The position numbers and the translations under genes are program-made. Below are positions 1,401 through 16,866 of a stretch of 64,000 bases of DNA, piece after piece. The stretch spans positions 1,922,001 through 1,986,000 of the forward strand of contig NZ_CP145904.1 of NCBI RefSeq assembly GCF_036895565.1, read 5' to 3'. The stretch comes from Flavobacterium sp. KS-LB2 (GTDB lineage: Bacteria; Bacteroidota; Bacteroidia; Flavobacteriales; Flavobacteriaceae). Below the pieces are notes generated by a model that was not told the DNA's origin, searched no databases, and saw only the letters and a list, made by a program, of their open reading frames with translations. How positions within the stretch are numbered: the stretch's first letter is position 1; each line of letters opens with the position of its first letter.

Positions 1401-1408
1401 TATCTTTG
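1401..1408 (+). promoter_or_regulatory. -7 promoter box TATCTTTG before the AraC-type gene
   Basis: TATCTTTG fits the Bacteroidota TAnnTTTG box and lies 18 bp before the ATG at 1427. It overlaps the in-frame TTG at 1406, which argues against that TTG as the start codon. No clear -33 element is visible. Confidence 0.5.
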
Positions 1409-1426
1409 AAACTATACATAAAATAC

Positions 1427-1978
1427 ATGGTAAGTAATCGCTGCAAAATGGCGGTTAAAGAAGAGTTAAAAAAACTCCAATTGCACTTCATGGTTGTTGA
1501 TCTAGGCGAAGTCGAAATCATGGAAAACATTTCGATGGACCAGAGACAACAATTAAAAATTGCACTTTTAGACTCTGGTCTAGAATTAATGGATGATAAA
1601 AAATCCATGCTGATCGAAAAGATTAAGAATGTGATTATTCAAATGGTGCATCATTCAACAGAAAATATAAAAATTAATTTTTCTGATTATCTGAGTCAAC
1701 AACTAAATCATGACTATACCTATCTCTCCAACTTGTTTTCAGAAGTACAAGGAACTACTATTGAGCAGTTTATAATTTCCCATAAAACAGAGCGAATAAA
1801 AGAATTGATTATTTATGGTGAATTAAACATCACTGAAATCGCATGGAAAATGAACTACAGTAGTGTAGCACATTTATCCAGCCAGTTTAAAAAAGTTACT
1901 GGCCTCTCTCCTTCTCATTTTAAACAATTAAAAGATAAAAGGCGAAGCCCTATTGAAGAAATTGGCAATTTAAAATAA
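1427..1978 (+). CDS. AraC-family transcriptional regulator
   Basis: About 183 residues. The N-terminal half (MVSNRCKMAVKEEL onward) is a small domain of the type I associate with flavobacterial stress loci. The C-terminal half (about residues 85-175) is an AraC/XylS double helix-turn-helix, ending in the canonical second HTH (ITEIAWKMNYSSVAHLSSQF, then KKVTGLSPSHFK). The ATG at 1427 is preferred over the in-frame TTG at 1406, because the TTG lies in the promoter box. A PAS-kinase reading frame follows directly in the same frame, separated only by this gene's TAA. It is the only DNA-binding regulator in the stress locus, so it is the natural candidate reader of the shared 66-bp promoters. That link is inference. 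Confidence 0.9.
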   Translation: MVSNRCKMAVKEELKKLQLHFMVVDLGEVEIMENISMDQRQQLKIALLDSGLELMDDKKSMLIEKIKNVIIQMVHHSTENIKINFSDYLSQQLNHDYTYLSNLFSEVQGTTIEQFIISHKTERIKELIIYGELNITEIAWKMNYSSVAHLSSQFKKVTGLSPSHFKQLKDKRRSPIEEIGNLK

Positions 1979-2290
1979 AAAAGAAATTCGAATCAATTTT
2001 ATAAAAAAATAGAAATTATAAAAAATCAAGAATCACAATACGCTAGAAGTCTCATTGAGGCTAGTTTAGACCCATTAATTACAATAAATACTGAAGGGAA
2101 AATTACCGATGTAAATCAAGCCACAGTAAATATTACGGGATTAGATCGAGGTCATTTAATTAACTCTGATTTTTTCAGTTATTTTACTGAAAAACAAAAA
2201 GCACACGAAGTATATCAAGAAGTTTTTGAAAAAGGTTCAGTAGCTGATTCTCCGCTAACACTTCGTCATAAAGAAGGTAAACTAACGGAT
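1979..2290 (+). pseudogene. start-less PAS-domain segment, in frame with the kinase
   Basis: From the AraC stop codon to 2290 the frame stays open and encodes a PAS sensor domain (SLIEASLDPLITINTEGKIT, then TDVNQATVNITGLD). It runs straight into the histidine kinase. No ATG, GTG or TTG occurs in this frame before the GTG at 2291, which lies inside the PAS domain. Either the kinase was truncated at its 5' end and joined to the AraC gene, or it starts at an unusual codon or by read-through of the single TAA. Kinases of this type that I recall carry several PAS domains at the N-terminus, so an internal deletion is the simplest reading. Confidence 0.6.
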
Positions 2291-4027: not shown

Positions 4028-4461
4028 TGAAAAATGATACTAAAATAAAGATTTTCCTAGTAGATGATGATGCCTTATTTTTAAAATCTTTAGAAATTGA
4101 ATTTTTAGAAAATGCTGATTTTATAGTAGAGACTTTTTCTACCGGAGAGCTTTGCATCGCAAATATAAATAATAATCCAGATGTTGTAATTTTAGATTAT
4201 CAACTAGATGGCATTGTTGAAAATGCCATGAACGGAATTGAAACATTGGATAAAATAAAGGCTTTCAATCCTGAAATTCCAGTAATTATGTTATCGTCTC
4301 AAGACAAAATTGAAGTTGCCATAAACTGCATGCACCATAAAGCTGTAGACTATGTTGTGAAAAGCGAAACTGCTTTTGTTCGCTTGCAAAAAATAATTAC
4401 TTCTGTTTTTAAATTTCAAAAAATGGAAAAGGAACTAAATTGGTACATGGATAGAATGTAG
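4027..4461 (+). CDS. single-domain response regulator
   Basis: The 144-residue protein is a CheY-like receiver without an output domain. It has the acidic pocket DDD (13-15), phospho-acceptor Asp57 (VVILDYQLD), a switch serine in IMLSSQD and the conserved lysine in VVKSE. A short helical tail follows. It overlaps the hybrid kinase by one base. Without a DNA-binding domain it must act through a protein partner. A link to the AraC-type regulator two genes upstream is plausible but not shown. Confidence 0.9.
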   Translation: MKNDTKIKIFLVDDDALFLKSLEIEFLENADFIVETFSTGELCIANINNNPDVVILDYQLDGIVENAMNGIETLDKIKAFNPEIPVIMLSSQDKIEVAINCMHHKAVDYVVKSETAFVRLQKIITSVFKFQKMEKELNWYMDRM

Positions 4462-4471
4462 TTTTTTTAGT

Positions 4472-4537
4472 GTGTGAATGATATAACTTTTGTTTACAAT
4501 TATGTAACTCTTTTAGAGTTTAACCGAATTACCTTTG
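4472..4537 (+). promoter_or_regulatory. 66-bp stress-locus promoter, copy 1
   Basis: GTGTGAAT, 2 bp, TATAAC, 15 bp, TGTAAC, 21 bp, TACCTTTG. The last octamer is a -7 box, and the second hexamer sits where a -33 box would be. It precedes the small membrane protein at 4667 with a leader of about 130 nt that contains a 9-codon upstream ORF (4625-4654). Confidence 0.75.
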
Positions 4538-4666
4538 CTTTGTAATCAACTCAAATACAAATATTTGAAGTTAATTAAATCAAAGGTATTTCTTTTTTTA
4601 TTAAGTAGGCTTTGAAAGTTAAATATGAAAATCAATCACAATATCAATCCTTAAAAAAACAAAAAA

Positions 4667-4861
4667 ATGAATCTTAAAAGAATCTTTGGAGCATTACTTA
4701 CAGCACTTGGAATAGGTGGTCTTATTTATACTGCAGTATTATTTGCTGAAACATCTGGCGACATGACAGATGTCAAGTCATTAATTATTTACGGTATTCT
4801 GGGTGTTATTTTCTTCTTTTCTGGAATCAGTTTGGTTCGTACTACAAAAGACGAATCATAA
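4667..4861 (+). CDS. small two-helix membrane protein
   Basis: 64 residues with two predicted membrane helices (about 7-27 and 38-58) joined by a short acidic loop (ETSGDMTDVKS). It ends in a charged tail. No named family is recognised. It is a single-gene unit between promoter copy 1 and a strong terminator, which makes it a member of the proposed stress regulon. Its role is unknown. Confidence 0.75.
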   Translation: MNLKRIFGALLTALGIGGLIYTAVLFAETSGDMTDVKSLIIYGILGVIFFFSGISLVRTTKDES

Positions 4862-4888
4862 AATAAAATCGATATAGCTTACAATACC

Positions 4889-4931
4889 AATAACCGCTCT
4901 CTTCTTTCTTATAGTCGAGAGCGGTTATTTG
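4889..4931 (+). terminator. Rho-independent terminator
   Basis: AATAACCGCTCTC (4889-4901) pairs perfectly with GAGAGCGGTTATT (4917-4929). Confidence 0.85.
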
Positions 4932-5038
4932 CGTTATATAAAAATTCCATAAATGAAGAGTAAACTAAATCAATTCAATCACTTTAAAACACACATGACA
5001 CTCATTTAAAGCGCATTAAAATGTAGTTTTCCGCCAAG

Positions 5039-5104
5039 GTGTGAATCATATAACTTATTTTTAAAATCTTGTAATACTTTTAAAAAGGAATAAAATCACC
5101 TTTG
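5039..5104 (+). promoter_or_regulatory. 66-bp stress-locus promoter, copy 2 (dps)
   Basis: GTGTGAAT, 2 bp, TATAAC, 15 bp, TGTAAT, 21 bp, CACCTTTG. The spacing is identical to copy 1. The leader to the dps ATG is about 108 nt. Confidence 0.75.
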
Positions 5105-5212
5105 TATTGTGCTTATTCTTTATTAATGATTGGACATCGTTTAAATCCTGTCAAAAAAAACTAATAATAAAGTCTTATTAGAATATCGATTCAATCATAA
5201 AATATAGAAAAT

Positions 5213-5686
5213 ATGAAACTACAAATTGGAATTACACAAGAACATTTAAAAAATAGTATTTCAATCCTATCTTCAATTTTAGCGAATGAAATGACATTAT
5301 ATGTTAAATTAAGAAAATTTCATTGGAATGTTTCAGGTGAAAGCTTTATGGAATTTCACAAATTATTTGAGGGTCAATATATAGAACTAGAAGCTTCTAT
5401 AGATGAAGTTGCAGAACGCATCAGCAAATTAGGTGGAAAAACTATTGGAACAATGAAAGAGTTTTCAGATTTGACCATAATCAAAGAGTCACCTAATCAT
5501 TACCCATCTCAAAAAGAAATGGTTAAAGAATTATTAGAAGATCATGAAATAGTTATCGTACAACTCCGAAAAGATGTTGATACCAGTTCTGAAGAAAATA
5601 AGGATGCTGCAACCGCTGATTTCCTTACTGGTTTGTTGGCTGCACATGAAACAATGGCTTGGACATTAAGACGATATTTAGAATAA
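5213..5686 (+). CDS. dps: Dps-family DNA-protection and iron-storage protein
   Basis: 157 residues, the usual length of a Dps four-helix bundle that assembles into a 12-mer, stores iron and protects DNA from peroxide. The ferroxidase signature is visible: His in RKFHWNVSG (about residue 38) and the D/E pair in the helix ELEASIDEVAERI. The C-terminal helix HETMAWTLRRYL is typical. It has its own promoter of the shared 66-bp type. A very short ORF follows before the terminator. Confidence 0.95.
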   Translation: MKLQIGITQEHLKNSISILSSILANEMTLYVKLRKFHWNVSGESFMEFHKLFEGQYIELEASIDEVAERISKLGGKTIGTMKEFSDLTIIKESPNHYPSQKEMVKELLEDHEIVIVQLRKDVDTSSEENKDAATADFLTGLLAAHETMAWTLRRYLE

Positions 5687-5703
5687 TAAAAAAATACAAA
5701 CAA

Positions 5704-5817
5704 ATGGAAAATCAGGAAAACGAAGTGTATTCAGCTTCAAAAAGTCATTGTAGGGTTGGTAAAATAACATCTAAAAAAATAGAAGAAGAGCAATCTACAA
5801 CAAATAAAGCTTTATAA
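5704..5817 (+). CDS. possible 37-residue peptide downstream of dps
   Basis: An ATG 17 bp after the dps stop opens a frame of 37 codons, rich in Lys, Glu and Ser with one Cys. It ends 38 bp before a terminator, so it would be co-transcribed with dps. No family is recognised and chance cannot be excluded. Confidence 0.3.
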   Translation: MENQENEVYSASKSHCRVGKITSKKIEEEQSTTNKAL

Positions 5818-5855
5818 AAATAGTAAAATTAGGTTAGTTTTTTTTGGGTTTGGTT

Positions 5856-5886
5856 AAGGGCTATTGTTTCTACAATAGCCCTTTTT
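5856..5886 (+). terminator. Rho-independent terminator after dps
   Basis: AAGGGCTATTGT (5856-5867) pairs with ACAATAGCCCTT (5872-5883) across a 4-base loop, followed by a T run. Confidence 0.9.
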
Positions 5887-6094
5887 GGTAGTGAGATTTA
5901 TGTTTTAATGAAAGATTCTTTTTCTTTTTTTACCCCAATTAATTCAGTTGACATTCCTATTTAGAAACATGTAAATTATATAATATTTTTGCAAATTAAT
6001 ATAATATTTTTTTAGATTAAATAGCTGAAATTTAAATAATTGTAATTCATTAATTATAAAAACAGTTTCAATACATAATACTAAAAAAATAAGT
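5887..6094. other. AT-rich intergenic region, no gene seen
   Basis: Very AT-rich leader region between the dps terminator and the next gene. A weak -7-like TATTTTTG occurs at 5984-5991, but the 66-bp promoter architecture is absent. No coding frame is apparent. Confidence 0.5.
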
Positions 6095-6477
6095 ATGAAA
6101 ACAACAAAAAAATTAGGCGTTTGGATGGATCATAACATGGCTCATTTAATGGAATTTACTTCTAAGCATTTTGAAATAGAAACTATTGAATCAAAACTTA
6201 ATGATCAAGAAAAAATTGAAAGTATAGTAAAATCAGATAATTCAAATTTCATCAAAGAGAAAAAACAACTTTTTGATTACTACAAGAGAATCGGAGAAGC
6301 CATAAAAAATTACAAACGCGTAATTCTATTTGGGCCAACTGATGCAAAATAGAACTCTTTGATCTTTTAAGTGAAGACATCCGTTTTTTAAAAATAAAAT
6401 TCGAGATTAAAGAAACTGATAAAATGGATGAAAATCAGCAACATAATTTTGTCAAAGAATACTTTTCAAGAGAATAA
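6095..6477 (+). pseudogene. frameshifted conserved hypothetical stress-locus protein
   Basis: The first 85 codons (MKTTKKLGVWMDHNMAHL, ending VILFGPTDAK) stop at TAG 6350-6352. The frame beginning GAA at 6352 then continues with a natural C-terminus (ELFDLLSEDI, then MDENQQHNFVKEYFSRE) up to TAA 6475-6477. Adding a single A to the AAAA run at 6346-6349 restores GAT GCA AAA ATA GAA CTC and joins both parts into about 127 residues, the length I recall for this family in flavobacteria. This is therefore a one-base deletion in a homopolymer: a real mutation, a sequencing error or, less likely, slippage. Function is unknown. Confidence 0.75.
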
Positions 6478-6522
6478 TAAAAATCTTTAATTGATTTATC
6501 CATAACCTTAAAAAAAACAAAA

Positions 6523-6744
6523 ATGAAAACAAAAACCATAGGATTAGCCATGATTATTTTAGGAATAGTTATGCTATTGTACACCAGTTTTAATTATGTA
6601 ACAACTGAAAACGTAGTTGATATTGGACCACTTCAAATCAATAAGGAGGTAAATCATCCTGTAAAATGGTCTCCAATTATAGGAATTATACTTGCTGTTG
6701 GAGGTGTTGTTTTAATTGTAGCAAGCAATAAAAGAGAAGCTTAA
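6523..6744 (+). CDS. small two-helix membrane protein
   Basis: 73 residues with a hydrophobic helix at 5-22, a central polar stretch (TTENVVDIGPLQINKEVNHP) and a second helix at about 50-67, ending in a basic tail. It is similar in build to the 64-residue protein at 4667. It lies 45 bp after the frameshifted gene, without a visible promoter of its own, so it is probably co-transcribed. Function is unknown. Confidence 0.8.
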   Translation: MKTKTIGLAMIILGIVMLLYTSFNYVTTENVVDIGPLQINKEVNHPVKWSPIIGIILAVGGVVLIVASNKREA

Positions 6745-6778
6745 TTCTGACGTTAGTTTTTTTTTTAATTCACTGAAT

Positions 6779-6844
6779 GTGTGAATAATGCAACATTAAT
6801 CAATAGTTATATAACACCTTCACTTACATTCATGACGACCTTTG
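6779..6844 (+). promoter_or_regulatory. 66-bp stress-locus promoter, copy 3
   Basis: GTGTGAAT, 2 bp, TGCAAC, 15 bp, TATAAC, 21 bp, GACCTTTG. The start codon of the DUF2383-like gene follows 28 bp later. The Mla operon downstream may also be read from here. Confidence 0.75.
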
Positions 6845-6872
6845 TATAGTAGTCAATTTAAAATAGAATACT

Positions 6873-7329
6873 ATGAATAAAGAGAAATCAATTGTTGTTT
6901 TAAATAATCTTATTGAAATCAATAATGATAGGATTCTGGTTTATGAAACTGCAACAGTAGCAACTGAAGAAAGTGATTTAAAAAATTTATTTTCTGAATG
7001 CCAAAAAACAAGTGAAATTTTTAAATCAGAACTACTAGAAGAAGTTCAAAAAATGGGTGGAAGTCCTGTTGATAAAATTAAAAAAAAACAGCTTTTTTAT
7101 AAGGCTTTGGATGATTTTTAAAGCAAAACTTATTGACAAAGACAGAGAAGATATTTTAAATACTATTGAATACAAAGAATTTGTAACCATAAAAAGCTAC
7201 AAAGAAACATTGGAAAATAATTTTGATTATCTAACCACTGAACTTCTCATCATCGTCAAATCCCAACAAATTTTATTAACTGCGCATCATGCCAAAGTTA
7301 AAAAATTAGGGGATTTGATACTATCTTAA
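6873..7329 (+). pseudogene. DUF2383/PA2169-type four-helix protein, frameshifted
   Basis: The first part (MNKEKSIVVLNNLIEINNDR to FYKALDDF) stops at TAA 7119-7121. The frame in the +1 register carries the rest of the family (FKAKLIDKDREDIL to HAKVKKLGDLI). Removing one T from the TTT run at 7105-7107 gives YKAWMIFKAKL and a continuous product of about 151 residues, the normal size for these ferritin-like helical bundles. Relatives occur in bacterial stress loci beside CsbD and YtxH proteins, but their function is not firmly known. As with the gene at 6095, a homopolymer indel is the cause, so sequencing error must be considered. Confidence 0.8.
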
Positions 7330-7393
7330 ATCAAGAAAACTCTTCTAGTTTATTTTAGTCCATTTCAATTTGCATCCATAAAAACAATGAATA

Positions 7394-8182
7394 ATGAATA
7401 GTATAATAGCCAAAAAAGAAAGTCTTACAACGTACTTGAAAGAAACGTTCAATGATGTAGGCAGCATTACATTATTTACAATTCGTTTTTTTAAAGAAGT
7501 GATAAAACCTCCTTATGAAATCAAGGAATTCATAAAACAATGTTACGTTATTGGGTATAAATCTTTGCCCTTAGTTACCATCACTGGCTTTATAATGGGC
7601 TTAGTGCTTACGTTACAATCAAGACCTACATTAGCCAAGTTTGGCGCCGAATCCTGGTTGCCGAGTATGGTTGCATTATCACTAATTAGAGAAATAGCAC
7701 CTGTGATTACTGCATTGATTTGCGCAGGAAAAGTTTCATCTGGTATTGGCGCTGAGTTAGGATCTATGAAAGTAACCGAGCAAATAGATGCAATGGAAGT
7801 TTCCGCAATAAATCCCTACAAATATTTAGTCGTTACAAGAATTTTAGCCACGACGCTTATGATTCCGTTATTAGTAATTTTTGCAGATGGCATTGGTATT
7901 ATTGGAGGATATGTAGGTATAAATATTCATAGTGATGTTAATTTATATCGCTACATCTCTCAAGTTTTAGAAGCCATTACATTTTTAGATATTTTTCCAG
8001 CGACTATGAAAACTTTTTTCTTTGGCTTTTTTATTGGAATGATTGGCTGTTATAAAGGGTTTAATGCTGCTAATGGAACTGAAAGTGTTGGTAAAGCAGC
8101 AAACTCTGCAGTAGTTACCGCGTCTCTTACCATATTTATTATTGATATGCTTGCTGTACAACTAACTGATTTATTTTTCTAA
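7394..8182 (+). CDS. mlaE: MlaE-type permease of an MCE lipid-transport ABC system
   Basis: 262 residues, about the usual length of MlaE/YrbE permeases. It has several membrane helices and the conserved stretch ALSLIREIAPVITALICAGK plus GAELGSMKVTEQIDAMEV. It is the first gene of a three-gene operon (permease, ATPase, MCE protein) that moves phospholipids between inner and outer membrane. The ATG at 7394 is used; the ATG at 7387 leads at once to a stop. No separate promoter is evident in the 64 bp after the DUF2383 gene, so transcription may come from promoter copy 3. Confidence 0.93.
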   Translation: MNSIIAKKESLTTYLKETFNDVGSITLFTIRFFKEVIKPPYEIKEFIKQCYVIGYKSLPLVTITGFIMGLVLTLQSRPTLAKFGAESWLPSMVALSLIREIAPVITALICAGKVSSGIGAELGSMKVTEQIDAMEVSAINPYKYLVVTRILATTLMIPLLVIFADGIGIIGGYVGINIHSDVNLYRYISQVLEAITFLDIFPATMKTFFFGFFIGMIGCYKGFNAANGTESVGKAANSAVVTASLTIFIIDMLAVQLTDLFF

Positions 8183-8183
8183 A

Positions 8184-8963
8184 ATGAGACAAGAAACAAC
8201 AACAATAAAAGCTCCTACCCCTATTTCTAAAACGAATAATTCAGTAATAGAAATAAAAGAACTTCATAAATCCTTTGGGAGCAATGAAGTGCTAAAAGGT
8301 GTTACTTTCAGTGTTAATAAAGGGGAAAATTTAGTGGTTTTGGGTAAATCAGGTTCGGGTAAGTCAATAACCATAAAATGTTTAGTTGGTTTATTGATTG
8401 CTGATGAAGGTGAAATCCATGTATTTGGCACAGATATAACAAAATTAGAAAACAATGAACTTAATGAAATTAGAGTTCGCATTGGTTTTCTTTTTCAAAA
8501 TGCTGCGCTATATGATTCCATGAGTGTTCGAGAAAATCTAGGATTTACATTGAAACGCCATGCTAAAGATTTATCTGCTGGAGAATTAGAAAGTGAAATA
8601 AAAGACGTTTTAGAAAGTGTAGGTTTGAGTGAAGCAATTGATAAAATGCCTTCGGAATTATCTGGGGGAATGCGAAAAAGAATTGGTCTTGCTAGAACTC
8701 TAATTTTGAAACCAGAAATAATATTATATGACGAACCTACAACTGGATTAGATACTATAACTTCTAGAGAAATCAGCGAATTAATACTAGAAATTCAGAA
8801 AAAAAATAAAACATCATCCATTATTATCACTCATGACATGGCTTGTGCAAAATACACTGCTGATCGATTGGTGATTCTAAAAGATGGCGTCATACATACT
8901 GAGGGAACATACCCAGAATTAGAAAAAAGTGAAGACGAATGGGTTCGTTCTTTCTTTATATAA
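8184..8963 (+). CDS. mlaF: MlaF-type ABC ATPase
   Basis: 259 residues. Walker A is GKSGSGKS (54-61), the Q-loop is FLFQN (about 103-107), the signature is LSGGM (159-163) and Walker B is ILYDEP (180-185). The initiation codon lies one base after the permease stop, so the two are tightly coupled. It powers lipid transfer by the MlaE/MCE complex at the inner membrane. The first 20 residues are a polar extension before the ABC core. Confidence 0.93.
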   Translation: MRQETTTIKAPTPISKTNNSVIEIKELHKSFGSNEVLKGVTFSVNKGENLVVLGKSGSGKSITIKCLVGLLIADEGEIHVFGTDITKLENNELNEIRVRIGFLFQNAALYDSMSVRENLGFTLKRHAKDLSAGELESEIKDVLESVGLSEAIDKMPSELSGGMRKRIGLARTLILKPEIILYDEPTTGLDTITSREISELILEIQKKNKTSSIIITHDMACAKYTADRLVILKDGVIHTEGTYPELEKSEDEWVRSFFI

Positions 8964-8981
8964 CCAATAAAAGAATAAAAA

Positions 8982-9866
8982 ATGAATAAAGAATCAGGAT
9001 ACCAATGGAAATTAGGAATGTTTGTCATTATCGGTTTAGTACTTTTTGTGACAACAATATATTTTGTTGGAAAACAGAAAAATTTATTTGGTGCTACATT
9101 TGAATTGAATTCAAAATTTAATTCGGTAAACGGACTTGAAGTAGGTAATAATGTTCGCTTTTCTGGAATTAATATTGGTACAGTGGAGGAGATTGAATTT
9201 CTTACAGATACTTCAGTAGTTATTAAATTAGTTATAAAAGAAGAAGTTCGTAAATACATCAAAAAAGATGCTATTGCAAGTATAAGCTCAGACGGTTTAA
9301 TGGGCGATAAAGTGCTCACAATATCTTCTGGTAGAGACTCTAATGTTATTGTAGAAGACAATGATAATATCGCTTCAAAGCAAGCTATAGAAATGGATGA
9401 TTTAATGGTTAGCGTTAAAAAAAGTGTAGATAATGCAGGTGTTATTACAGCTCAACTTGCTCAGTTTAGCTATAGCATGAATAACGGAAATGGCGCTTTA
9501 TCTAAACTAGTCTCGGATGAGGAATTTGGAAATAGTATAAAAAATATGGTTACTAACCTGGAAAATAGCTCCAACGAATTTGAAAAGTTTACAGTAAAAA
9601 TGAATAATGGAAAAGGGGCACTTTCAAAATTTGTAACTGACGAGAAGATGGGAAGAATGATTGATTCTACCTTAACTAATGTAAAAAAAGGAACAGAAGG
9701 GCTCAATGAAGTTATTGAAGCTGCAAAACATAATTTCCTTTTAAGAGGCTATTTTAATAAAAAGAAAAGAGCAGAAGATAAAAAACTAGATGATTTAGAA
9801 GATCAGGAAGAACTAGAAATGAAGAAAGAACTAAATATGGGTGTAAAATTTGATACTATAAAATAA
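8982..9866 (+). CDS. mlaD: MCE-domain (MlaD-type) substrate-binding protein
   Basis: 294 residues. One N-terminal membrane anchor (about 9-27) is followed by a single MCE domain (about 35-115, with VNGLEVGNNVRFSGINIG and SDGLMGDKVLTIS) and a long helical tail (130-290). The tail contains two related segments (MNNGNGALSKLVSDEEFG and MNNGKGALSKFVTDEKMG). The end is very charged. It completes the lipid-transport operon as the periplasmic ring-forming component. Confidence 0.92.
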   Translation: MNKESGYQWKLGMFVIIGLVLFVTTIYFVGKQKNLFGATFELNSKFNSVNGLEVGNNVRFSGINIGTVEEIEFLTDTSVVIKLVIKEEVRKYIKKDAIASISSDGLMGDKVLTISSGRDSNVIVEDNDNIASKQAIEMDDLMVSVKKSVDNAGVITAQLAQFSYSMNNGNGALSKLVSDEEFGNSIKNMVTNLENSSNEFEKFTVKMNNGKGALSKFVTDEKMGRMIDSTLTNVKKGTEGLNEVIEAAKHNFLLRGYFNKKKRAEDKKLDDLEDQEELEMKKELNMGVKFDTIK

Positions 9867-9958
9867 TTTTTTACAAATAACTATAGCTATCAAGAACTTG
9901 AAACAGATTTTAAAAAACTGGCTATATTAAGAAAATACTTGTTTATAAGTGACTGAAA

Positions 9959-10024
9959 GTGAAAATTCTACAACTTAATAGTAAAGTAGTATAACATTTG
10001 ATTTTGGAGTACATAGTACCTTTA
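9959..10024 (+). promoter_or_regulatory. 66-bp stress-locus promoter, copy 4
   Basis: GTGAAAAT, 2 bp, TACAAC, 15 bp, TATAAC, 21 bp, TACCTTTA. The DUF4382 start codon lies 36 bp downstream. Confidence 0.7.
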
Positions 10025-10060
10025 CAAAACTATACAATTATTTTGAATCCCTAAATTTAA

Positions 10061-10831
10061 ATGAAAATGAAAAAAATGAAATTTATCTTGTCTTTCATCA
10101 TGCTTGGATTATTAATTTATTCCTGTAACAATGATGATACCAATGCTAGTTATCCTTATGCTGTAAGATTGACTGATGCACCCGGCCCTTACGACGAAGT
10201 GAATATAGACCTCCAAGGTGTAGAAGTAATAGGAGATGATGGTAAAACTATAGCATTAAATGTAGAAAAAGGCATTTATAATTTACTAGAATTATCTAAT
10301 GGTGTAGATGCATTAATTGCGACTGATTCACTAGAAATTTCTTCCGTGAAACAAATAAGGCTTATTCTTGGTGCAGCTAACACGGTAGTACTTGATGGTG
10401 TAAGTTATCCTTTGAGCACTCCTAGTGCTGAACAAAGCGGTTTAAAACTTCAAGTTAATCAAACGCTTCAAGCAGGAATTTTATATACTGTTCTTTTGGA
10501 TTTTGATGCTAACAAATCGGTAGTTAAATTAGGAAATGGAGGATATCAATTGAAACCCGTTATTCGAACTATAGAAAAACCAATTAGCGGTTCCATAAAA
10601 GGTAAAATCACTCCAATAGGAACAATGGCAGTGGTTGAAGCTACTTCATCAACAGCTGTAAGTTATACAAGTAATGTTAATGAAAACGGTGATTTCTTAG
10701 TTATGGGACTTCCTCCTGGAATCTACACTATTACTATAACTCCTGCGTTACCGTTATTACCTATAACAAAAACGGATATAGAAGTTACAGCCGGTATCAC
10801 TACTGATATAGGAGCATTTATCATACTATAA
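10061..10831 (+). CDS. DUF4382 lipoprotein with carboxypeptidase-like C-terminal domain
   Basis: 256 residues. The signal peptide ends in a lipobox-like LIYSC (Cys22). Residues about 30-165 match a DUF4382 domain (YAVRLTDAPGPYDEVNIDLQ, GVYNLLELSNG-type core), a cell-envelope domain of unknown function. The last 85 residues form a carboxypeptidase-regulatory-like beta sandwich (SGSIKGKITP, GLPPGIYTITI). It has its own 66-bp type promoter and a terminator behind it. It is probably surface-exposed; its role in stress is inferred only from the promoter. Confidence 0.88.
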   Translation: MKMKKMKFILSFIMLGLLIYSCNNDDTNASYPYAVRLTDAPGPYDEVNIDLQGVEVIGDDGKTIALNVEKGIYNLLELSNGVDALIATDSLEISSVKQIRLILGAANTVVLDGVSYPLSTPSAEQSGLKLQVNQTLQAGILYTVLLDFDANKSVVKLGNGGYQLKPVIRTIEKPISGSIKGKITPIGTMAVVEATSSTAVSYTSNVNENGDFLVMGLPPGIYTITITPALPLLPITKTDIEVTAGITTDIGAFIIL

Positions 10832-10892
10832 AGATCATAATATGCTTTTTTTTTTAATTCAAAAAAGCTTTTACAAAACATTCAGTTCCATA

Positions 10893-10948
10893 AAAATCAT
10901 TAAAAACATCATTTTACCTTGCGATGTTTTTAATGATTTTATTTTTTA
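10893..10948 (+). terminator. Rho-independent terminator
   Basis: An 18-bp perfect stem (10893-10910 with 10923-10940) is followed by T-rich sequence. A weaker GCTTTTTT/AAAAAAGC hairpin lies just before it at 10844-10868. Confidence 0.85.
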
Positions 10949-10996
10949 AACTCCAATAAAAGTACCGTTCTAAAATAAACCTAAAAAATAACTCAC

Positions 10997-11215
10997 ATGA
11001 AAACTGAAAAAGAACTCAATGACGCTATTCTAAAAATAACATTGAAAATACAAAATGATTATCCTGAATTATCTAAGTACTTATCAGAGATTCCTGTGAC
11101 TATACCAAATATTTCAAATCCTGAAATAAATAATAAAGCACTAACTAATTATTACGAATCTTTAGAAAACATATTGGAAAAATACATTCCAAATCATATC
11201 GATAATTCAAATTAA
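10997..11215 (+). CDS. small hypothetical protein
   Basis: 72 residues, predicted mostly helical, soluble and acidic, with a central proline-rich turn (PVTIPNISNP). I recall similar short proteins beside CsbD genes in flavobacteria, but no family name or function. It lies after a terminator and before promoter copy 5. No promoter of the 66-bp type is found upstream. Confidence 0.75.
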   Translation: MKTEKELNDAILKITLKIQNDYPELSKYLSEIPVTIPNISNPEINNKALTNYYESLENILEKYIPNHIDNSN

Positions 11216-11299
11216 TAAAATTATTTATTCTCATTACCACTAAAGAACAATTAAATCATTTCATACAAACCAATTTATTTTTCATTTTTTATATAAAAT

Positions 11300-11365
11300 C
11301 AGTGAATAAAACAACTAATTATAAAAGTTATGCAACTGATTTTATCGGTAAACACCTCAACTTTG
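11300..11365 (+). promoter_or_regulatory. 66-bp stress-locus promoter, copy 5 (CsbD gene)
   Basis: CAGTGAAT, 2 bp, AACAAC, 15 bp, TGCAAC, 21 bp, CAACTTTG. The spacing is identical to the other copies. The start codon lies 39 bp downstream. Confidence 0.7.
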
Positions 11366-11404
11366 TAAAGTGAATATTATTTCACATACAATACATCTAA
11401 AAAA

Positions 11405-11590
11405 ATGAACTCAATAAAGCTAAAAGGAAATTGGGAAGAGCAAAAAGGAAAATTAAAACAAAAATTTGCCGCTTTAACCGATAATGATTTACTGTTTACA
11501 GAAGGTAAAAAAGAGGAAATGATGGAAAAACTCCAAATTAAATTGGGTAAATCCAAGGAAGAAATTCTTAAGATTATTCCATTTATCTAG
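11405..11590 (+). CDS. CsbD-family stress protein
   Basis: 61 residues, the family's usual size. The CsbD core is clear: KLKGNWEEQKGKLKQKFAAL followed by LLFTEGKKEEMMEKLQIKLG. CsbD proteins are strongly induced by general stress in many bacteria, but their biochemical role is unknown. The gene is monocistronic under promoter copy 5. Confidence 0.9.
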   Translation: MNSIKLKGNWEEQKGKLKQKFAALTDNDLLFTEGKKEEMMEKLQIKLGKSKEEILKIIPFI

Positions 11591-11876
11591 TACATTTATT
11601 GTATAAGAACTTGTTTAACACTAGTAATAGATTCCTAAATCTAAACCGTTGTATAATTCAGACTAGCAATATAAAAATATTCTAGTTTGAATTATAAAAT
11701 GACATCCAAAGCTATTTAAGCAGCTAGAAAGTAAAACATTTGACATTAAACATAATATAAGAAACTACAATAAGCAATAGTCAAAAAGAAGGACAAGTTT
11801 TTTTGCTCGTTTTTTTACATCTAAATCCTTTTTGATTAAAAATAGCTCCAAAATATTTACTGATCAATCATTTAAG
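11591..11876. other. intergenic region, no gene seen
   Basis: AT-rich, with stops in all frames and no convincing hairpin terminator. It ends at promoter copy 6. Confidence 0.5.
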
Positions 11877-11942
11877 GTGTGAATAATGTAAACTTAACCA
11901 AAAGTATTGTAACAAAGAAAGTGCGTAAGTTGATGATCTTTG
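11877..11942 (+). promoter_or_regulatory. 66-bp stress-locus promoter, copy 6
   Basis: GTGTGAAT, 2 bp, TGTAAA, 15 bp, TGTAAC, 21 bp, GATCTTTG. The start codon lies 34 bp downstream. It probably drives 11977-14057 as one operon. Confidence 0.75.
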
Positions 11943-11976
11943 TAATGTAATAATTCAATAACAAAAAACAATTAAT

Positions 11977-12600
11977 ATGAAAAATTCAAATAAACTGGTT
12001 TTCGCTTCTTTAGTGGCAGGCTTTATGTCTTTTACAAGTGTTCAAGCTCAAGATAAAACTGCTTCTTATGGTTTTAAGGGAGGCTTAAACTTCTCCAATC
12101 TATACACTGATAATGTAGATGATAATAATGTGTTGACCGGATTCAATGCAGGATTATACGCTAAATTTCCTATTACTAATTCTATCGCAATTCAACCTGA
12201 AATAAGCTATACTACCAAAGGTGCTGAATTAGTTTACAATAATACTTTTGCGCAAGGAACTGCTAAATTCAATATCAACTACATCGAAGTACCCGTTTTA
12301 TTAGTAATGAATATTACAGATAATTTTAATGTGCATGTAGGTCCATACGCAGCCTATATGGTTAGTGGAAAAACAACTAATGATTCTAATTTTGGATCAT
12401 CTCAAGCTGAATTAGATACTAATGACTTCAATAAGTTTGACGCTGGTCTTGCTGGTGGTGTTGGGATTGATTTAGATGTAGTGAACTTTGGAGTGCGATA
12501 CAATTATGGATTAACTAGAATTGGAAAAGAAGATAGCTTTATTTCCTCAGATGCAAAAAACAGTGTTTTAAGCGCTTATATAGGTCTTAAACTAAACTAA
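11977..12600 (+). CDS. PorT-type outer-membrane beta-barrel protein
   Basis: 207 residues with a signal peptide ending in SVQAQ. The mature part alternates short amphipathic strands typical of the small eight-stranded barrels of Bacteroidota (YGFKGGLNFSNL, AIQPEISYTTKGAEL, INYIEVPVLLVMN, VGPYAAYMVSG, FGVRYNYGLTRIG, ending in YIGLKLN). Such proteins sit in the outer membrane; the exact role is unknown. It is the first gene after promoter copy 6 and leads a run of small membrane-protein genes with short gaps. Confidence 0.9.
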   Translation: MKNSNKLVFASLVAGFMSFTSVQAQDKTASYGFKGGLNFSNLYTDNVDDNNVLTGFNAGLYAKFPITNSIAIQPEISYTTKGAELVYNNTFAQGTAKFNINYIEVPVLLVMNITDNFNVHVGPYAAYMVSGKTTNDSNFGSSQAELDTNDFNKFDAGLAGGVGIDLDVVNFGVRYNYGLTRIGKEDSFISSDAKNSVLSAYIGLKLN

Positions 12601-12630
12601 AAAATAATAATTCAAAAAAAAATCATAATC

Positions 12631-12783
12631 ATGAGCAATTTACTATACACAATCGCAGTAATATTAGTCCTTTTTTGGGCAATTGGATTCTTTGCATACA
12701 GCGTAGGATCAATTATTCACATTCTTCTTGTTATTGCAGTTATTGCAGTTATATTGAGAATCATTCAAGGCAAAAGAATCTAA
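12631..12783 (+). CDS. lmo0937-family small membrane protein, copy 1
   Basis: 50 residues: MSNLLYTIAVILVLFWAIGF is followed by a second hydrophobic helix and a short basic end (QGKRI). This matches the lmo0937 family of two-helix membrane proteins often found in stress loci; function is unknown. It is 30 bp after the barrel gene. Confidence 0.88.
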   Translation: MSNLLYTIAVILVLFWAIGFFAYSVGSIIHILLVIAVIAVILRIIQGKRI

Positions 12784-12853
12784 TATGATATGCCCTTATA
12801 ATTAACCTACAAAACGAATCAAGTAAAAATAAATTCATTAAAAACTAGAAATC

Positions 12854-13006
12854 ATGAGCAATCTTCTTTACACAATCGCAGTTATTTTAGTCATTTTTTG
12901 GGCAATTGGATTCTTTGCATTCAGCGTAGGTTCAATTATACACGTTCTTCTAGTCATTGCTGTTATTGCAATACTATTTAGACTTATACAAGGCAGAAGT
13001 CTCTAA
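12854..13006 (+). CDS. lmo0937-family small membrane protein, copy 2
   Basis: 50 residues and nearly identical to the preceding gene. Differences are a few conservative replacements, such as Leu/Ile in the first helix and Tyr/Phe in the loop, plus the tail GRSL in place of GKRI. The DNA is also closely similar, so this is a recent tandem duplication. It lies 70 bp after copy 1 in the same operon. Confidence 0.88.
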   Translation: MSNLLYTIAVILVIFWAIGFFAFSVGSIIHVLLVIAVIAILFRLIQGRSL

Positions 13007-13037
13007 ATCAAATCGTTAAATAATAAAATACATATTT

Positions 13038-13316
13038 ATGAAAGCAGATAAAATAATATTAGGAGTTTTAGGAGGCGTAGCCGTTGGAGCATTATTAGGA
13101 GTATTGTTTGCACCTGAAAAAGGGGACAAAACAAGAAAAAAAATTATGGACAAAAGCAACGATTATGCTGATGAATTAAAAGACAAATTAGATACTTTAT
13201 TGGGGACAATAAATAAAAAGTATGAGAAAATTTGGAATGAAAGTGAAAATTTAATCGCCGAAGGAAAATCAAAATTTGATGATGTGAAACATGAAATTAA
13301 AAACACGAGTATCTAG
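13038..13316 (+). CDS. YtxH-domain protein
   Basis: 92 residues. The N-terminus is a glycine-zipper-like membrane helix (ILGVLGGVAVGALLGVLFAP) followed by the EKGDKTRKKI motif of YtxH proteins and then a charged helical tail. YtxH proteins are general-stress membrane proteins in Firmicutes and Bacteroidota, and resemble DUF883/YqjD proteins in layout. The gene is placed directly before a holin-like gene, an order reminiscent of yqjD-yqjE-yqjK. Confidence 0.88.
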   Translation: MKADKIILGVLGGVAVGALLGVLFAPEKGDKTRKKIMDKSNDYADELKDKLDTLLGTINKKYEKIWNESENLIAEGKSKFDDVKHEIKNTSI

Positions 13317-13369
13317 AAAGACACTTGAATATTAAAATTTCACAAGTAAACACATTTACAATTTACACC

Positions 13370-13717
13370 ATGGAAAACAACGCAACAACAATAGAAATGC
13401 TTTTTGAGAAAGCAGAGGATTATACTAGAACAACTGTAGAATTAGTGAAGTTAAATGCAGTAGATAAAACTGCTGATGTCATGTCCTCACTCCTTTCTCG
13501 ATTAACTGTTTCTATTGTTTTTGTTATGTTTGCCTTTTTAGCTAATATTGGTCTTTCTTTATGGATAGGCGAATTATTAGGAAAAGTATATTTTGGTTTT
13601 TTTATGGTGTCTATTGGTTATTTCTTAATTTCATTAGTACTATATAAGTATAAAGATCAATGGCTAAAAATGCCAATCAGTAATTTTATCATTGTCAAAA
13701 TGCTTAAAAAAAGTTAA
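13370..13717 (+). CDS. YqjE/holin-superfamily-III-like membrane protein
   Basis: 115 residues from the ATG at 13370. The in-frame TTG at 13325 would add an unlikely polar leader. A polar N-terminal helix (EKAEDYTRTTVELVKLNAVDK) precedes two long membrane helices (about 45-65 and 75-95), the form of the phage_holin_3_6/YqjE family. Despite the family name, nothing suggests a prophage. It lies in the YtxH operon and its stop is followed after one base by the next ATG. Confidence 0.8.
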   Translation: MENNATTIEMLFEKAEDYTRTTVELVKLNAVDKTADVMSSLLSRLTVSIVFVMFAFLANIGLSLWIGELLGKVYFGFFMVSIGYFLISLVLYKYKDQWLKMPISNFIIVKMLKKS

Positions 13718-13718
13718 T

Positions 13719-14057
13719 ATGAAAACCATTAGCGAGACAGACATTCTTAAGGAAACAATACAATTGCTTAAAATAAAACAAGCTAACGAATTAGTACTTC
13801 TTAAAGACCAGTATTATCATACGTATGAAAGTTTAAAACCTTTGAATATAATCAAAAATGCTTTGGGCCAAATGGCAACCTCATCAGATTTTAAAGGAAA
13901 TATACTTAGTAATGTTATTGGTATTTCAACTGGTTATTTGACAAAAAAAGTTTTATTGGGATCATCACACAATCCTATCAAAAGAATATTGGGTACATTA
14001 CTACAATTTGTAATTACTAATGTAGTTACAAAACATTCCGATAGGTCAAAATCATAA
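13719..14057 (+). CDS. hypothetical protein (YqjK-like position)
   Basis: 112 residues from the ATG at 13719; the in-frame TTG at 13692 lies inside the preceding gene. The N-terminal half is helical and charged (ILKETIQLLKIKQANELVLLKDQYY). The C-terminal half is hydrophobic with glycines (GNILSNVIGISTGYLTKKV, then ILGTLLQFVITNVVTKH), so it is probably a membrane-associated protein. It is the last gene of the YtxH/holin-like operon. I do not recognise a named family. Confidence 0.78.
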   Translation: MKTISETDILKETIQLLKIKQANELVLLKDQYYHTYESLKPLNIIKNALGQMATSSDFKGNILSNVIGISTGYLTKKVLLGSSHNPIKRILGTLLQFVITNVVTKHSDRSKS

Positions 14058-14224
14058 TACCTATATTTTAGTTTTAAATTTATTTATCCGAATCTAATAA
14101 TGAACTACGAATTTACTTGTAACTCTTTATTTATTCTTGTTTTTTTTTAAATAAACTCAAAAACTAAGATTTTAATTGATACTTTATTTTATTTAAGATT
14201 CTATCTTTTACAACCAATTTAAGC

Positions 14225-14854
14225 ATGGAAAAAAGATTAAAAAAAGAAGCGTTATTAATTTTAAATAAAGAACTTGCTTTTCAAAACTTAAAAAAAGAAA
14301 AACAAGCTAAAGAACTGATTATAGCTTATAATGAACTTGCTTTTCAAAACTTAGAAAAGGAAAAACGTGCCGCTGAATTAATAATTGCAAATAAAGAACT
14401 AGCATTTCAAAACTTAGAAAAAGAAAAACGGGCCGCTGAATTAATAATTGCGAATAAAGAACTAGCATTTCAAAACTTAGAAAAAGAAAAACGTGCTGCT
14501 GAATTAATTATTGCTAACAGAGCACTTCTACTTCAAAATCAAGAAAGAGAAAAACAATCTGCTGAATTGATTATTGCCAATCAAGAACTAAAAAAAGCCG
14601 AAGAATATCAAATAGAATATATAAACGGACTAGAGCAAATTATGTTTATGACTTCTCATAAAGTTAGACAGCCCATTGCTAATATTTTAGGATTATCCTA
14701 TTTACTTCATCATCAATCTGTAAATTCCCCAGATGAATTAAGAGAATCTCTAGATTACATCAAACAATCTGCTTTGAAGCTTGATGCTTTTACAAAAGAG
14801 CTCACCCAATTCATTTTTACTTTGGGAGAAAAAGGAAAAATTGTGTCTAAGTAA
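14225..14854 (+). CDS. coiled-coil HisKA protein without a catalytic ATPase domain
   Basis: 209 residues. Residues 16-120 are five tandem 21-residue units (three heptads each) of the type ELAFQNLEKEKRAAELIIANK; units 2-4 are almost identical. A HisKA-like dimerisation helix follows with candidate phospho-acceptor His145 (MTSHKVRQPIANILGLSYLL). The protein then ends after about 60 residues with no HATPase_c N or G boxes. It could be a phosphotransfer or decoy partner of the hybrid kinase, or a truncated kinase. Downstream sequence holds no missing ATPase: a terminator follows at once, so the short form is not due to a nearby frameshift. Confidence 0.85.
   Translation: MEKRLKKEALLILNKELAFQNLKKEKQAKELIIAYNELAFQNLEKEKRAAELIIANKELAFQNLEKEKRAAELIIANKELAFQNLEKEKRAAELIIANRALLLQNQEREKQSAELIIANQELKKAEEYQIEYINGLEQIMFMTSHKVRQPIANILGLSYLLHHQSVNSPDELRESLDYIKQSALKLDAFTKELTQFIFTLGEKGKIVSK
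14270..14584 (+). repeat. five tandem 63-bp repeats inside the HisKA protein gene
   Basis: The units encode 21 residues each. The three central units differ by only a few synonymous bases, which implies recent duplication and possible length variation by slippage or recombination. Confidence 0.85.
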
Positions 14855-14880
14855 ACATTTAGGGTAATAAAATTTAAAAA

Positions 14881-14925
14881 AAACAGGGTTTAACTTTTTC
14901 ATTAAAGTTAAACCCTGTTTTTTTG
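14881..14925 (+). terminator. Rho-independent terminator
   Basis: A 17-bp perfect stem (14881-14897 with 14904-14920) with a 6-base loop and a T run. Confidence 0.92.
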
Positions 14926-15073
14926 TCTTTAGCAGTATTTACTACTGGTTTTTTCTTTAAATTATTTTTTTAGCACCTCTAAATTTAATCGGTAAAAAAA
15001 ATCAAATAAGGTAATTCTTGCTTATTTTTTTTTTAAAAATTAATCTATTGACAATCATCAATAAATTTAAAAT

Positions 15074-15139
15074 AAGTGAATTTAACAACTTCTATTTTTA
15101 ATTATATAATAGGTATCGGGGACAACAAAACAATCTTTG
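15074..15139 (+). promoter_or_regulatory. 66-bp stress-locus promoter, copy 7
   Basis: AAGTGAAT, 2 bp, AACAAC, 15 bp, TATAAT, 21 bp, AATCTTTG. The spacing is identical to copies 1-6. The start codon lies 35 bp downstream. Confidence 0.65.
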
Positions 15140-15174: not shown

Positions 15175-16866
15175 ATGAAAATTAAAAATTCACTAATCTC
15201 CTTTGCAATATTATGTATTGCATTAATTTCTGGATGTGCAAACGATGATTTCCAGGAGACAATTGGCGTATGTCCAGTTGTAGAATCGACAAGCCCAATA
15301 AATGGAGCTATTAATGTTCCATTAGACCAAACGATTACAGTAATCTTTAATGAAGAGATGAATGTTGCCTCCTTTAATCAATCATCTTTTACTTTACAAG
15401 GTACTACGGCAGTTGCAGGAACAGTTACATTTAGCGGAAAAACTGCTTCGTTTGACCCTACGAGCCCACTTGCACCAAATACAACTTACACTGGCGTAAT
15501 TAAAACATCAGTTAAGGATATCATGGGTAATGCTCTACAGGAAGATTATGTATGGACATTTAGTACAGGTTCAACTGTAACACCAATGGTAATTTCTACA
15601 GATCCAGCTAATAATGCAACGAATGTATTCCTTAATAAAATTGTTAGTGCAAATTTTAATATGCCTATGAATCAGGCAACTCTAAACACCACAACTTTTA
15701 CATTAAAACAAGGGTCTACATCAGTAGCAGGAGCAGTTTCGTATAACGGAACAACTGCTAATTTTACTCCGAACGCTCTTCTAGTGTCTAATACTATTTA
15801 TACAGCTACGATAACAACCGGAGCAAAAAATGTTCAAGGAACAACAACAACCAGCAACTATACCTGGACATTTACTACGGGATCTATTACAGCTCCTAAC
15901 GTAACTACTACTGATCCTGCCAACAATGCTTCTGGTGTTCCACTTAATAAAAACATTATAGCTAATTTTAGTATGGTAATGGACCCTTTGACTATTAACA
16001 CTACTACATTTACACTAAAAAACGGTTCGGCAATAGTTACTGGAACAGTATCCTATTTAGGAACAACTGCTACATTTAACCCCAATAGTGATTTACTACC
16101 TGGAACTACTTATACAGCTACAATTAATACTGGTGCTAGAAACTTATCAAGTGTTCCATTAGCAAACGATTACGTTTGGGAATTCAGTACTAATACAGCA
16201 GTAGTTGGAAATACAGTAAATCTTGGGTCTGCTGAAAGATTTGGGATTTTAGCAGGAGTTGGAGTAAGTAATAATGCTGGTTTCAGTATAATCAATAATA
16301 TGGACGTTGGTATAAGCCCCGGAGTTCGTTCTTCTATCACAGGATTTCCTCCTGCAGTTATAGTTAATGGTGCTATTTATGCTTCTGATGATATTGCCCC
16401 TGTAGGAATTGCTGCTATGTTAACACAAGCTAAACTAGACCTTACTAACGCGTATCTTTTTGCCGAAGGAGCTTCATATAGCGCGCCTATAACGGTTTCT
16501 GGAGATCAGGGTGGAAAAACACTTGTTGCAGGTATTTACAAATCAACATCTACACTTTTAGTTCAAAATGGTGATTTAACTCTTAGCGGTAGTGCAACTG
16601 ACGTTTGGATTTTCCAAATAGCCTCTGCATTCACAACTGTTGGTGGAGCTGGTGGAAATATAAAGCTTACAGGTGGAGCACTTGCTAAAAATGTCTTTTG
16701 GCAAACGGGGAGTTCAGCAACTATTGGAGATTACACTTCTTTTGTAGGCAATATATTGGCCCTACAATCTATTACAATGGGATCGTATTCTACTGCACAA
16801 GGTAGAATGCTTGCAAGAAATGGAGCTGTTGTAATGACTCATACTAACATAATCACAAAGCCTTAA
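15175..16866 (+). CDS. lipoprotein with three Ig-like domains and a C-terminal ice-binding-type DUF3494 domain
   Basis: 563 residues. The signal peptide ends in ALISGC, giving a lipidated Cys21. Three bacterial Ig-like (Big_5 type) domains follow (about 36-130, 136-235, 240-338), each with STDPANNATNVFLNK- and FTTGS-type borders. Residues about 355-560 form a DUF3494 domain (FGILAGVGVSNN, DVGISPG, VNGAIYASDD, ending near GRMLARNGAVVMTHT), the beta-helix fold of known ice-binding proteins. In other species this fold inhibits ice recrystallisation or binds ice, but many members have no tested activity. It is under promoter copy 7 and two bases before an OmpA gene. Confidence 0.9.
   Translation: MKIKNSLISFAILCIALISGCANDDFQETIGVCPVVESTSPINGAINVPLDQTITVIFNEEMNVASFNQSSFTLQGTTAVAGTVTFSGKTASFDPTSPLAPNTTYTGVIKTSVKDIMGNALQEDYVWTFSTGSTVTPMVISTDPANNATNVFLNKIVSANFNMPMNQATLNTTTFTLKQGSTSVAGAVSYNGTTANFTPNALLVSNTIYTATITTGAKNVQGTTTTSNYTWTFTTGSITAPNVTTTDPANNASGVPLNKNIIANFSMVMDPLTINTTTFTLKNGSAIVTGTVSYLGTTATFNPNSDLLPGTTYTATINTGARNLSSVPLANDYVWEFSTNTAVVGNTVNLGSAERFGILAGVGVSNNAGFSIINNMDVGISPGVRSSITGFPPAVIVNGAIYASDDIAPVGIAAMLTQAKLDLTNAYLFAEGASYSAPITVSGDQGGKTLVAGIYKSTSTLLVQNGDLTLSGSATDVWIFQIASAFTTVGGAGGNIKLTGGALAKNVFWQTGSSATIGDYTSFVGNILALQSITMGSYSTAQGRMLARNGAVVMTHTNIITKP

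Follow-up and report, generated by a model that had tools for sequence, protein, structure and literature searches.

The 64,000-nucleotide stretch of Flavobacterium sp. KS-LB2 that was analyzed here (contig NZ_CP145904.1, positions 1,922,001 to 1,986,000; referred to as the window) carries eight copies of a 66-bp site upstream of genes such as dps, together with a gene for an AraC-type protein (positions 1406 to 1978, forward strand) that is probably their binder. Other Bacteroidota have the same layout and, along with it, one AraC-type regulator, and the window's protein is likely to be the switch of a stress regulon. We consider it highly probable that the sites are promoters of the class II type switched by this protein, and that the protein is a member of a Bacteroidota-wide family comprising two arms, one for stress and one for metals. 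The architecture of the sites, its rigidity, the linkage, the co-occurrence and a base coupled to the clade of the regulator can all be seen directly in the sequences. To our knowledge, SigB, RpoS and PhyR-EcfG, through which general stress responses are known to be controlled, all belong to other phyla, and we know of no controller that co-ordinates CsbD, Dps and similar genes in Bacteroidota.

Architecture of the 66-bp sites

The original prediction listed seven promoters of a common architecture in the window. Direct reading of the sequence located all seven, each exactly 66 bp long and with the predicted order and spacing of elements; the total was too low, an eighth site having been overlooked at 5969 to 6034. 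A matrix was built from 190 sites in the loci of other genomes, which had been found with a pattern drawn from the window's seven. Applied to the window, it returned exactly eight matches of 30.9 to 60.1 bits, and the next best position scored −10.5. The eight sites, all on the forward strand, precede a gene for a 64-residue membrane protein (site 1, 4472 to 4537, 60.1 bits), dps (site 2, 5039 to 5104, 56.7 bits), the DUF2383 and Mla-type genes (site 3, 6779 to 6844, 59.8 bits), a DUF4382 gene (site 4, 9959 to 10024, 31.1 bits), a CsbD gene (site 5, 11300 to 11365, 44.4 bits), the barrel, DUF5670 and YtxH genes (site 6, 11877 to 11942, 43.5 bits), an ice-binding-like gene (site 7, 15074 to 15139, 30.9 bits) and, for the eighth site, whose block is GTAAAT (32.4 bits), a short ORF (open reading frame) at 6095. 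Counting from zero, the columns G2, A5, A6, T7, A13, A14, A26, T28, T31, A34, A35, A59, C61 and T62 to T64 are invariant across the seven. The first hexamer deviates at three sites (AACAAC at 11300 and 15074, TGTAAA at 11877), and site 4 has GAAAAT in place of GTGAAT.

When both strands of the window were scanned with a leave-one-out matrix from the seven sites, five outscored all non-sites, and those at 9959 and 15074 were each beaten by one, presumably the one at 5969. With the full matrix of seven, 5969 was the only high-scoring non-site (22.1), the next reaching −0.2.

The spacing was measured in the loci of 80 relatives with none presupposed, by counting half-site pairs and measuring the distance to the −7 core. 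These loci are the best 80 of 424, with 81 to 98% identity to the window's AraC-type protein, and span Flavobacterium, Lutibacter, Labilibaculum, Prolixibacteraceae and various Bacteroidota bins, one being labelled Ignavibacteria. Half-sites stood 21 bp apart in 129 pairs, and none of the other offsets between 12 and 32 accounted for more than 5. The gap from the proximal half-site to the −7 core (A.CTTTR) was 22 bp in 94 cases, 21 bp in 6 and took no other value between 14 and 31 bp. A logo of the 190 sites displayed similar half-sites at positions 5 to 15 and 26 to 36 with a weakly conserved linker between them, followed by a second weakly conserved stretch and then the −7 region. A pair of direct half-sites with a period of about 21 bp and a proximal half-site that overlaps the −33/−35 region at a fixed distance from the −7/−10 box characterize the AraC/XylS class II promoters, such as araI1-I2 of AraC and Pm of XylS in enterobacteria and pseudomonads, and both features were found here.

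According to passages of a promoter map of Flavobacterium psychrophilum (SM1 to SM6), the primary-sigma −7 box is TAnnTTTG at −12 to −5 (PMC9723704). Among 252 sites near orthologues of the AraC-type gene, the A and the TTTG of this Bacteroidota box are retained, and the first T is present in 41, C occupying its place in 140. In other upstream NAnnTTTG matches, chance ones included, T came first in 135 of 240, and inside ORFs in 127 of 523. Because the usual −33 box is absent and the −7 box mostly lacks its initial T, the sites look like activator-dependent promoters, and the comparison with relatives supports the earlier suggestion that such promoters are combined here with direct-repeat sites. 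For the 237 of the 252 sites to which an ORF could be assigned, the −7 box ended a median of 43 nt (quartiles 35 to 54) before the ATG.

An alternative sigma factor of the extracytoplasmic function (ECF) type might instead read the proximal TRYAAC and the CAnCTTTG box, the linkage to the AraC-type gene then being incidental. The −7 box does depart from TAnnTTTG at its first base, and TRYAAC is reminiscent of the AAC core that many ECF −35 elements possess. However, ECF promoters have a spacer shorter than the 24 bp that separate the hexamer from CTTTG in the window sites, and the −7 core keeps the TTTG of the primary sigma factor. An ECF sigma factor would also leave unexplained the two half-sites with their 21-bp spacing and the distal GTGAAT block, a base of which largely tracks the clade of the AraC-type protein, as described below. 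We therefore regard this explanation as very improbable.

Co-occurrence of the sites with an AraC-type regulator

As the original prediction had proposed, the whole genome and related genomes were searched with a gapped pattern drawn from the seven sites (GTGAAT, RYAAC, ART, TRYAAY and A.CTTTR at fixed spacing). The reversed pattern served as the control, and matches were present where the controls were empty. The source genome (3,408,714 bp, a single contig) gave 10 matches at up to three mismatches and none with the reversed pattern. Seven of these were the sites already noted, the eighth being too divergent to be counted there. The three additional matches lie before a gene for an 89-residue, probably exported protein (L010), before an outer-membrane barrel gene (L012), and at the 3′ end of the gene for an AraC-type relative, before a heavy-metal-binding protein gene (L011). 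At up to two mismatches, 74 of 150 genomes of the genus had matches, 255 in total by table tally, with 0 in the reversed control. Class-wide, 43 of 198 genomes had matches, again with 0 in the control; this set shares three genomes with the genus set, so that 345 distinct genomes were covered in all. The 80 orthologue loci contained 191 sites at up to three mismatches, and the reversed pattern found none in their 1,357,183 bp even at four. Chance similarity as the source of the sites is excluded. The highest count per genome at up to two mismatches was 30, in G248, part of which is represented by loci L163 to L166; large ice-binding-like surface proteins are among the targets there, and the kinase of L165 resembles that of the window.

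The sites and the regulator were found together. Among the genus genomes, 33 of the 35 with an orthologue at 70% or more had sites (185 sites, median 5), compared with 41 of the 115 without one (70 sites, median 0; Fisher test, 2e-10). Sites were present in all 13 class-wide genomes with an orthologue at this level. By table count, 32 of 81 class-wide genomes with a match at 1e-40 had sites and 11 of 117 without such a match did; eight of these 11 have a weaker family match at 1e-5, that of G213 being doubtful.

The window's AraC-type protein combines an N-terminal part of about 80 residues, with the motif MVSNRC, and a C-terminal double helix-turn-helix that places it in the AraC/XylS family, both Pfam scores being above cut-off (HTH_18, 5.2e-16; HTH_AraC, 1e-8). 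Its start had been put at 1427 but is most likely the TTG at 1406, where 78 of 78 readable relatives have a start-type codon (68 TTG, 7 GTG, 3 ATG and no other; 2 of the 80 were unreadable). The closest named relatives, at 97 to 98% identity, are from Flavobacterium sp. 11, F. yafengii, F. rhamnosiphilum and F. glaciei. The first Cys of a CxxC motif present elsewhere in the family is Ser in the window protein and in 78 of 79 readable relatives, and Gly in one. No Pfam HMA match was found in the window protein; PF00403 (HMA) matched only the CxxC relative L011, below cut-off (E value of 0.21). Of the 80 orthologue loci, 51 have a site in the 400 bp before the AraC-type gene itself. These self-sites, the co-occurrence, sites at the 3′ ends of relatives' genes and the clade-linked base all favor the AraC-type protein as the binder that the original prediction had suggested. 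As a −7 box for the window's own AraC-type gene, the octamer TATCTTTG at 1401 to 1408 was rejected because it overlaps the TTG start codon.

We propose that the AraC-type protein, as a dimer or a pair of monomers, would bind the two direct half-sites A-R-T-N-N-T-R-Y-A-A-C at their 21-bp period. The promoter-proximal half-site, in the place of the −33 box, would position RNA polymerase with its primary sigma factor, and the polymerase would be set at the weakened −7 box, mostly CAnCTTTG as opposed to the TAnnTTTG favored by ordinary promoters. At the distal half-site, the GTG block may help to decide membership of the regulon. In this scheme it is binding, activation, the start sites, the signal and the stress output that we infer.

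A sister clade next to metal genes

A further 80 stretches around AraC-type relatives, plus L011, were compared. The sample is not random, because it was chosen from listed matches and partly for a nearby site. It held 87 distinct AraC-type ORFs, 54 with CxxC and 33 with SxxC. With the GTGAAT block masked, the search for sites ran from 150 bp upstream of each stop codon to 300 bp downstream of it. For 64 of the 87 it yielded a site with an ORF behind it, 35 of these sites overlapping the stop codon; the other 23 (10 CxxC, 13 SxxC) were left out for lack of a site at the threshold or of an ORF after it. The site preceded a metal gene in 41 of 44 CxxC rows and in 0 of 20 SxxC rows, in which 14 other genes and six next AraC-type genes followed. 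Pfam analysis of the 41 metal targets gave HMA in 40 and E1-E2 ATPase in 30, the L011 target having HMBD only, and the other 23 targets included six AraC-type and three CsbD proteins, with no metal family at 1e-5.

The third base of the GTGAAT block was A in 40 and T in 1 of the metal targets, with no G, and in the rest it was G in 21 and A in 2. The score threshold of −6 was picked after the list had been seen; at a threshold of 5 the result holds (CxxC, 34 A and 3 G; SxxC, 2 A and 15 G). Among the 64 rows there are 29 whose block is clear of the stop codon (CxxC, 19 A, 2 G and 1 T; SxxC, 7 G), and since the split holds in these rows, the choice of stop codon is not its cause. The metal rows form one clade of 41 in the tree (support, 100/94). 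In the three CxxC exceptions (L187, L238 and L254) the target is not a metal gene and the base is G; they group with the stress clade in the tree, though on long branches. At residue 126 of the protein all 41 metal rows have Q, whereas 17 of the 23 others have H. At residue 115, E occurs in 40 of the 41 and in 2 of the 23, which mostly have K or T; the 80 orthologues have Q. Residues 115 and 126 are candidate determinants. A metal-type pattern, drawn from rows already seen, gave 28 matches in 23 of the 150 genus genomes and 0 in controls.

These data point to CxxC members of the family as candidate metal (copper) regulators of Bacteroidota. The CxxC clade adjoins, and would drive, metal genes, encoding HMA proteins that are mostly P-type ATPases, through GTAAAT-type sites. 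The stress clade, mostly SxxC, would drive CsbD, Dps/ferritin, ice-binding, OmpA, response-regulator and YtxH genes, mostly through GTGAAT sites, and its regulator may often drive its own gene too. Two further arrangements were observed. CxxC members stand directly before HMA/P-type ATPase genes with a site at or near the stop codon in L180, L182, L184, L185, L186, L196 and others. In L189 to L194, two AraC-type family genes lie in tandem, and the second is preceded by a site-like stretch close to where the first ends, which suggests a cascade, although the scores vary and that of L189 is the weakest.

Several observations count against a family of AraC-type activators acting through these sites. 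Three genomes with sites (G280, G315 and G273, with 5, 4 and 1) have no family member at an E value of 1e-5 or below. The sites of the first two look genuine, because one precedes a response regulator gene (G280) and one a CsbD gene (G315); a missing contig and another binder are both possible explanations. The sole family match of G213 is 29% identical. Two of the 35 genus genomes with the orthologue (G003 and G095) have no site at up to two mismatches, and 13 of the 80 orthologue loci have none at up to three in the retrieved DNA. The window's AraC-type gene is itself without an upstream site, the matrix scores at 1335 to 1351 all being negative. Of the 252 sites near orthologues, 226 had G as the third base, 21 had A and 5 had T, and the metal-type A also occurs in 2 of the 8 window sites (5969 and 9959), G occupying the other 6. 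This one base is therefore not the whole code: it largely tracks the target class, as a strong tendency and not as a strict rule. The P values for clade and base are overstated, because the rows are not independent and reflect roughly one split in the tree.

Some of these observations would suit another DNA-binding protein, for example one acting with the neighboring kinase and response regulator pair, the AraC-type protein being merely co-inherited. Site 1 is separated from the AraC-type gene by the genes for the kinase and the regulator, three genomes have sites and no detectable family member, and response regulators are frequent targets (14 of 146); in L165, a kinase with a PAS segment like that of the window has a site. 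The window's response regulator was rejected as the binder, however, because it has a receiver domain only and no DNA-binding domain. Among best matches in the 80 loci, moreover, a site lay upstream of the kinase in 0 of 76 and of the regulator in 0 of 66, as against 51 of 80 for the AraC-type gene, and family members encoded far from this island have the site at the 3′ ends of their own genes. We give this alternative very little credence.

The relative from the metal clade that this genome also encodes (G000:C1:469422-469967) might likewise activate some of the eight sites, making the regulon partly a metal response. It has the same architecture, a similar helix-turn-helix and 55 to 56% overall identity, as well as its own site and a metal-binding target, and two of the window sites have the metal-type base. 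The G in the other six window sites and in 226 of the 252 near orthologues, compared with 0 of 41 metal targets, makes such cross-activation unlikely. Activation of the window sites by the window's own AraC-type protein is the reading that we prefer.

Proposed targets of the regulon and known systems

All target genes described here are on the forward strand. Site 1 precedes the gene for a small protein of 64 residues, membrane-bound as judged by eye (4667 to 4861; site in 12 of 22 homologue loci). Site 2 precedes a Dps-like ferritin gene (5213 to 5686; Pfam Ferritin, 3.2e-31; 7 of 13 loci) and the eighth site an ORF of 85 residues (6095 to 6352; 5 of 7 loci). The DUF2383 gene after site 3 (6873 to 7121; Pfam, 1.5e-9; 3 of 3 loci) is followed by ORFs for MlaE, ABC ATPase and MlaD-type proteins (7394 to 9866), named in the original prediction and not by a Pfam scan. 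These probably lie downstream in the same operon; among their homologues, an upstream site was seen for MlaE in 4 of 7 loci and for neither the ATPase (0 of 11) nor MlaD (0 of 6). The DUF4382 protein (10061 to 10831; Pfam, 2.3e-28) had no homologue at 1e-6 in the 80 orthologue loci. A site was found in 14 of 16 loci with homologues of the CsbD-like protein (11405 to 11590; Pfam CsbD, 7.5e-11) and in 2 of 5 with homologues of the outer-membrane beta-barrel protein (11977 to 12600; Pfam OMP_b-brl_2, 6.4e-29). After the barrel gene come DUF5670 (12631 to 12783) and YtxH (13038 to 13316), both identified with Pfam; YtxH homologues had a site in 3 of 10 loci, and YtxH may be reached through an operon. 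Site 7 precedes the gene for a Big_5 and Ice_binding (DUF3494) protein (15175 to 16866; Pfam Ice_binding, 2.8e-48; Big_5, 2.9e-63), whose homologues had a site in 6 of 20 loci, and this is followed by an OmpA-family gene (16869 to 18902; Pfam OmpA, 5.4e-10).

A PAS-HisKA-HATPase-REC hybrid kinase frame (1985 to 4027; tblastn matches in 76 of 80 loci, paralogues perhaps included) and a single-domain response regulator gene (4027 to 4461; Pfam Response_reg, 1.4e-19) also lie in this region, both on the forward strand, and the kinase is a possible regulatory input. Its frame is that of the preceding AraC-type stop codon, with no ATG, GTG or TTG before the PAS segment, and L074 and L076 are similar. 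The ORFs at 6095 to 6352 and 6873 to 7329, about 0.7 kb apart, both seem interrupted and both lie near A-runs. Longer relatives exist (eighth target, 127 residues in L073 and L120; DUF2383, 151 residues in L073), and the interruptions apparently reflect decay or an assembly error. At 14225 to 14854 the window encodes a protein of degenerate repeats of about 20 residues (ANKELAFQNLEKEKR-like) with a weak HisKA match at its end; similar repeats follow the AraC-type gene, in varying frame, in L096, L098, L100, L101 and L124.

Pfam was run on 146 of 169 distinct non-AraC targets, and 25 of the 45 families found were tabulated. Ice_binding was the commonest (22), with 14 response regulators, 12 CsbD, 8 Big_5, 6 OMP_b-brl, 5 OmpA, 4 ferritins, 3 YtxH and one each of BON, YceI and BrkB. 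This composition might mean that the family-bound sites serve surface remodelling, biofilm formation or attachment to ice, with CsbD and Dps as passengers, an account which the prominence of Ice_binding, Big_5, OmpA and barrel proteins favors. However, CsbD, Dps/ferritin, YtxH, BON and YceI are target kinds typical of general-stress regulons in other phyla, and the recurrence of the site at CsbD homologues runs contrary to a purely surface function. A surface regulon is accordingly the less probable account, if one with an appreciable chance. The label of a stress regulon fits the predicted target families, with a strong surface and ice component.

A bolder proposal can be put forward only tentatively: that Bacteroidota control their general stress response with no sigma factor dedicated to it, through an AraC-type activator of metal-sensor descent that would have lost a metal-binding Cys. 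It would have gained a private regulon chiefly through the change of GTAAAT to GTGAAT, one base pair in a 66-bp promoter otherwise unchanged, with the metal arm persisting in the same genome. The two-arm family is also a clear example of divergence between the copies of a duplicated regulator and between their sites, with clade, base and target class shifting largely together. Because the motif had no control match in the 345 genomes and comes with a candidate regulator, stress control in Bacteroidota becomes directly testable.

At their end, the 66-bp sites resemble the −7 box of the F. psychrophilum map; the main text of that paper contains neither "AraC" nor "direct repeat", and the passages considered describe no such regulon (PMC9723704). 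A search of the PubMed Central open set, without supplements, turned up no Bacteroidota family in which two regulons share one promoter plan.

In kind, architecture and protein family appear to be those of AraC/XylS class II systems, as known from other bacteria, with a double helix-turn-helix and direct half-sites repeated at about 21 bp, of which the one nearer the promoter overlaps the −35/−33 region. The sites described here differ in the Bacteroidota-type −7 box and in the number of sites, up to 30 per genome. AraC itself has a cupin-type sugar-binding domain, in contrast to the short N-terminal part of about 80 residues with MVSxRC. Like copper regulators of the CueR and CsoR types, the CxxC sister clade adjoins HMA/P-type ATPase genes, although those proteins belong to families unrelated to the AraC type. 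With the SigB, RpoS and PhyR-EcfG regulons the predicted stress arm shares CsbD, Dps/ferritin, YtxH, BON and YceI targets, but in place of a sigma factor it apparently employs an activator on promoters that resemble those of the primary sigma factor.

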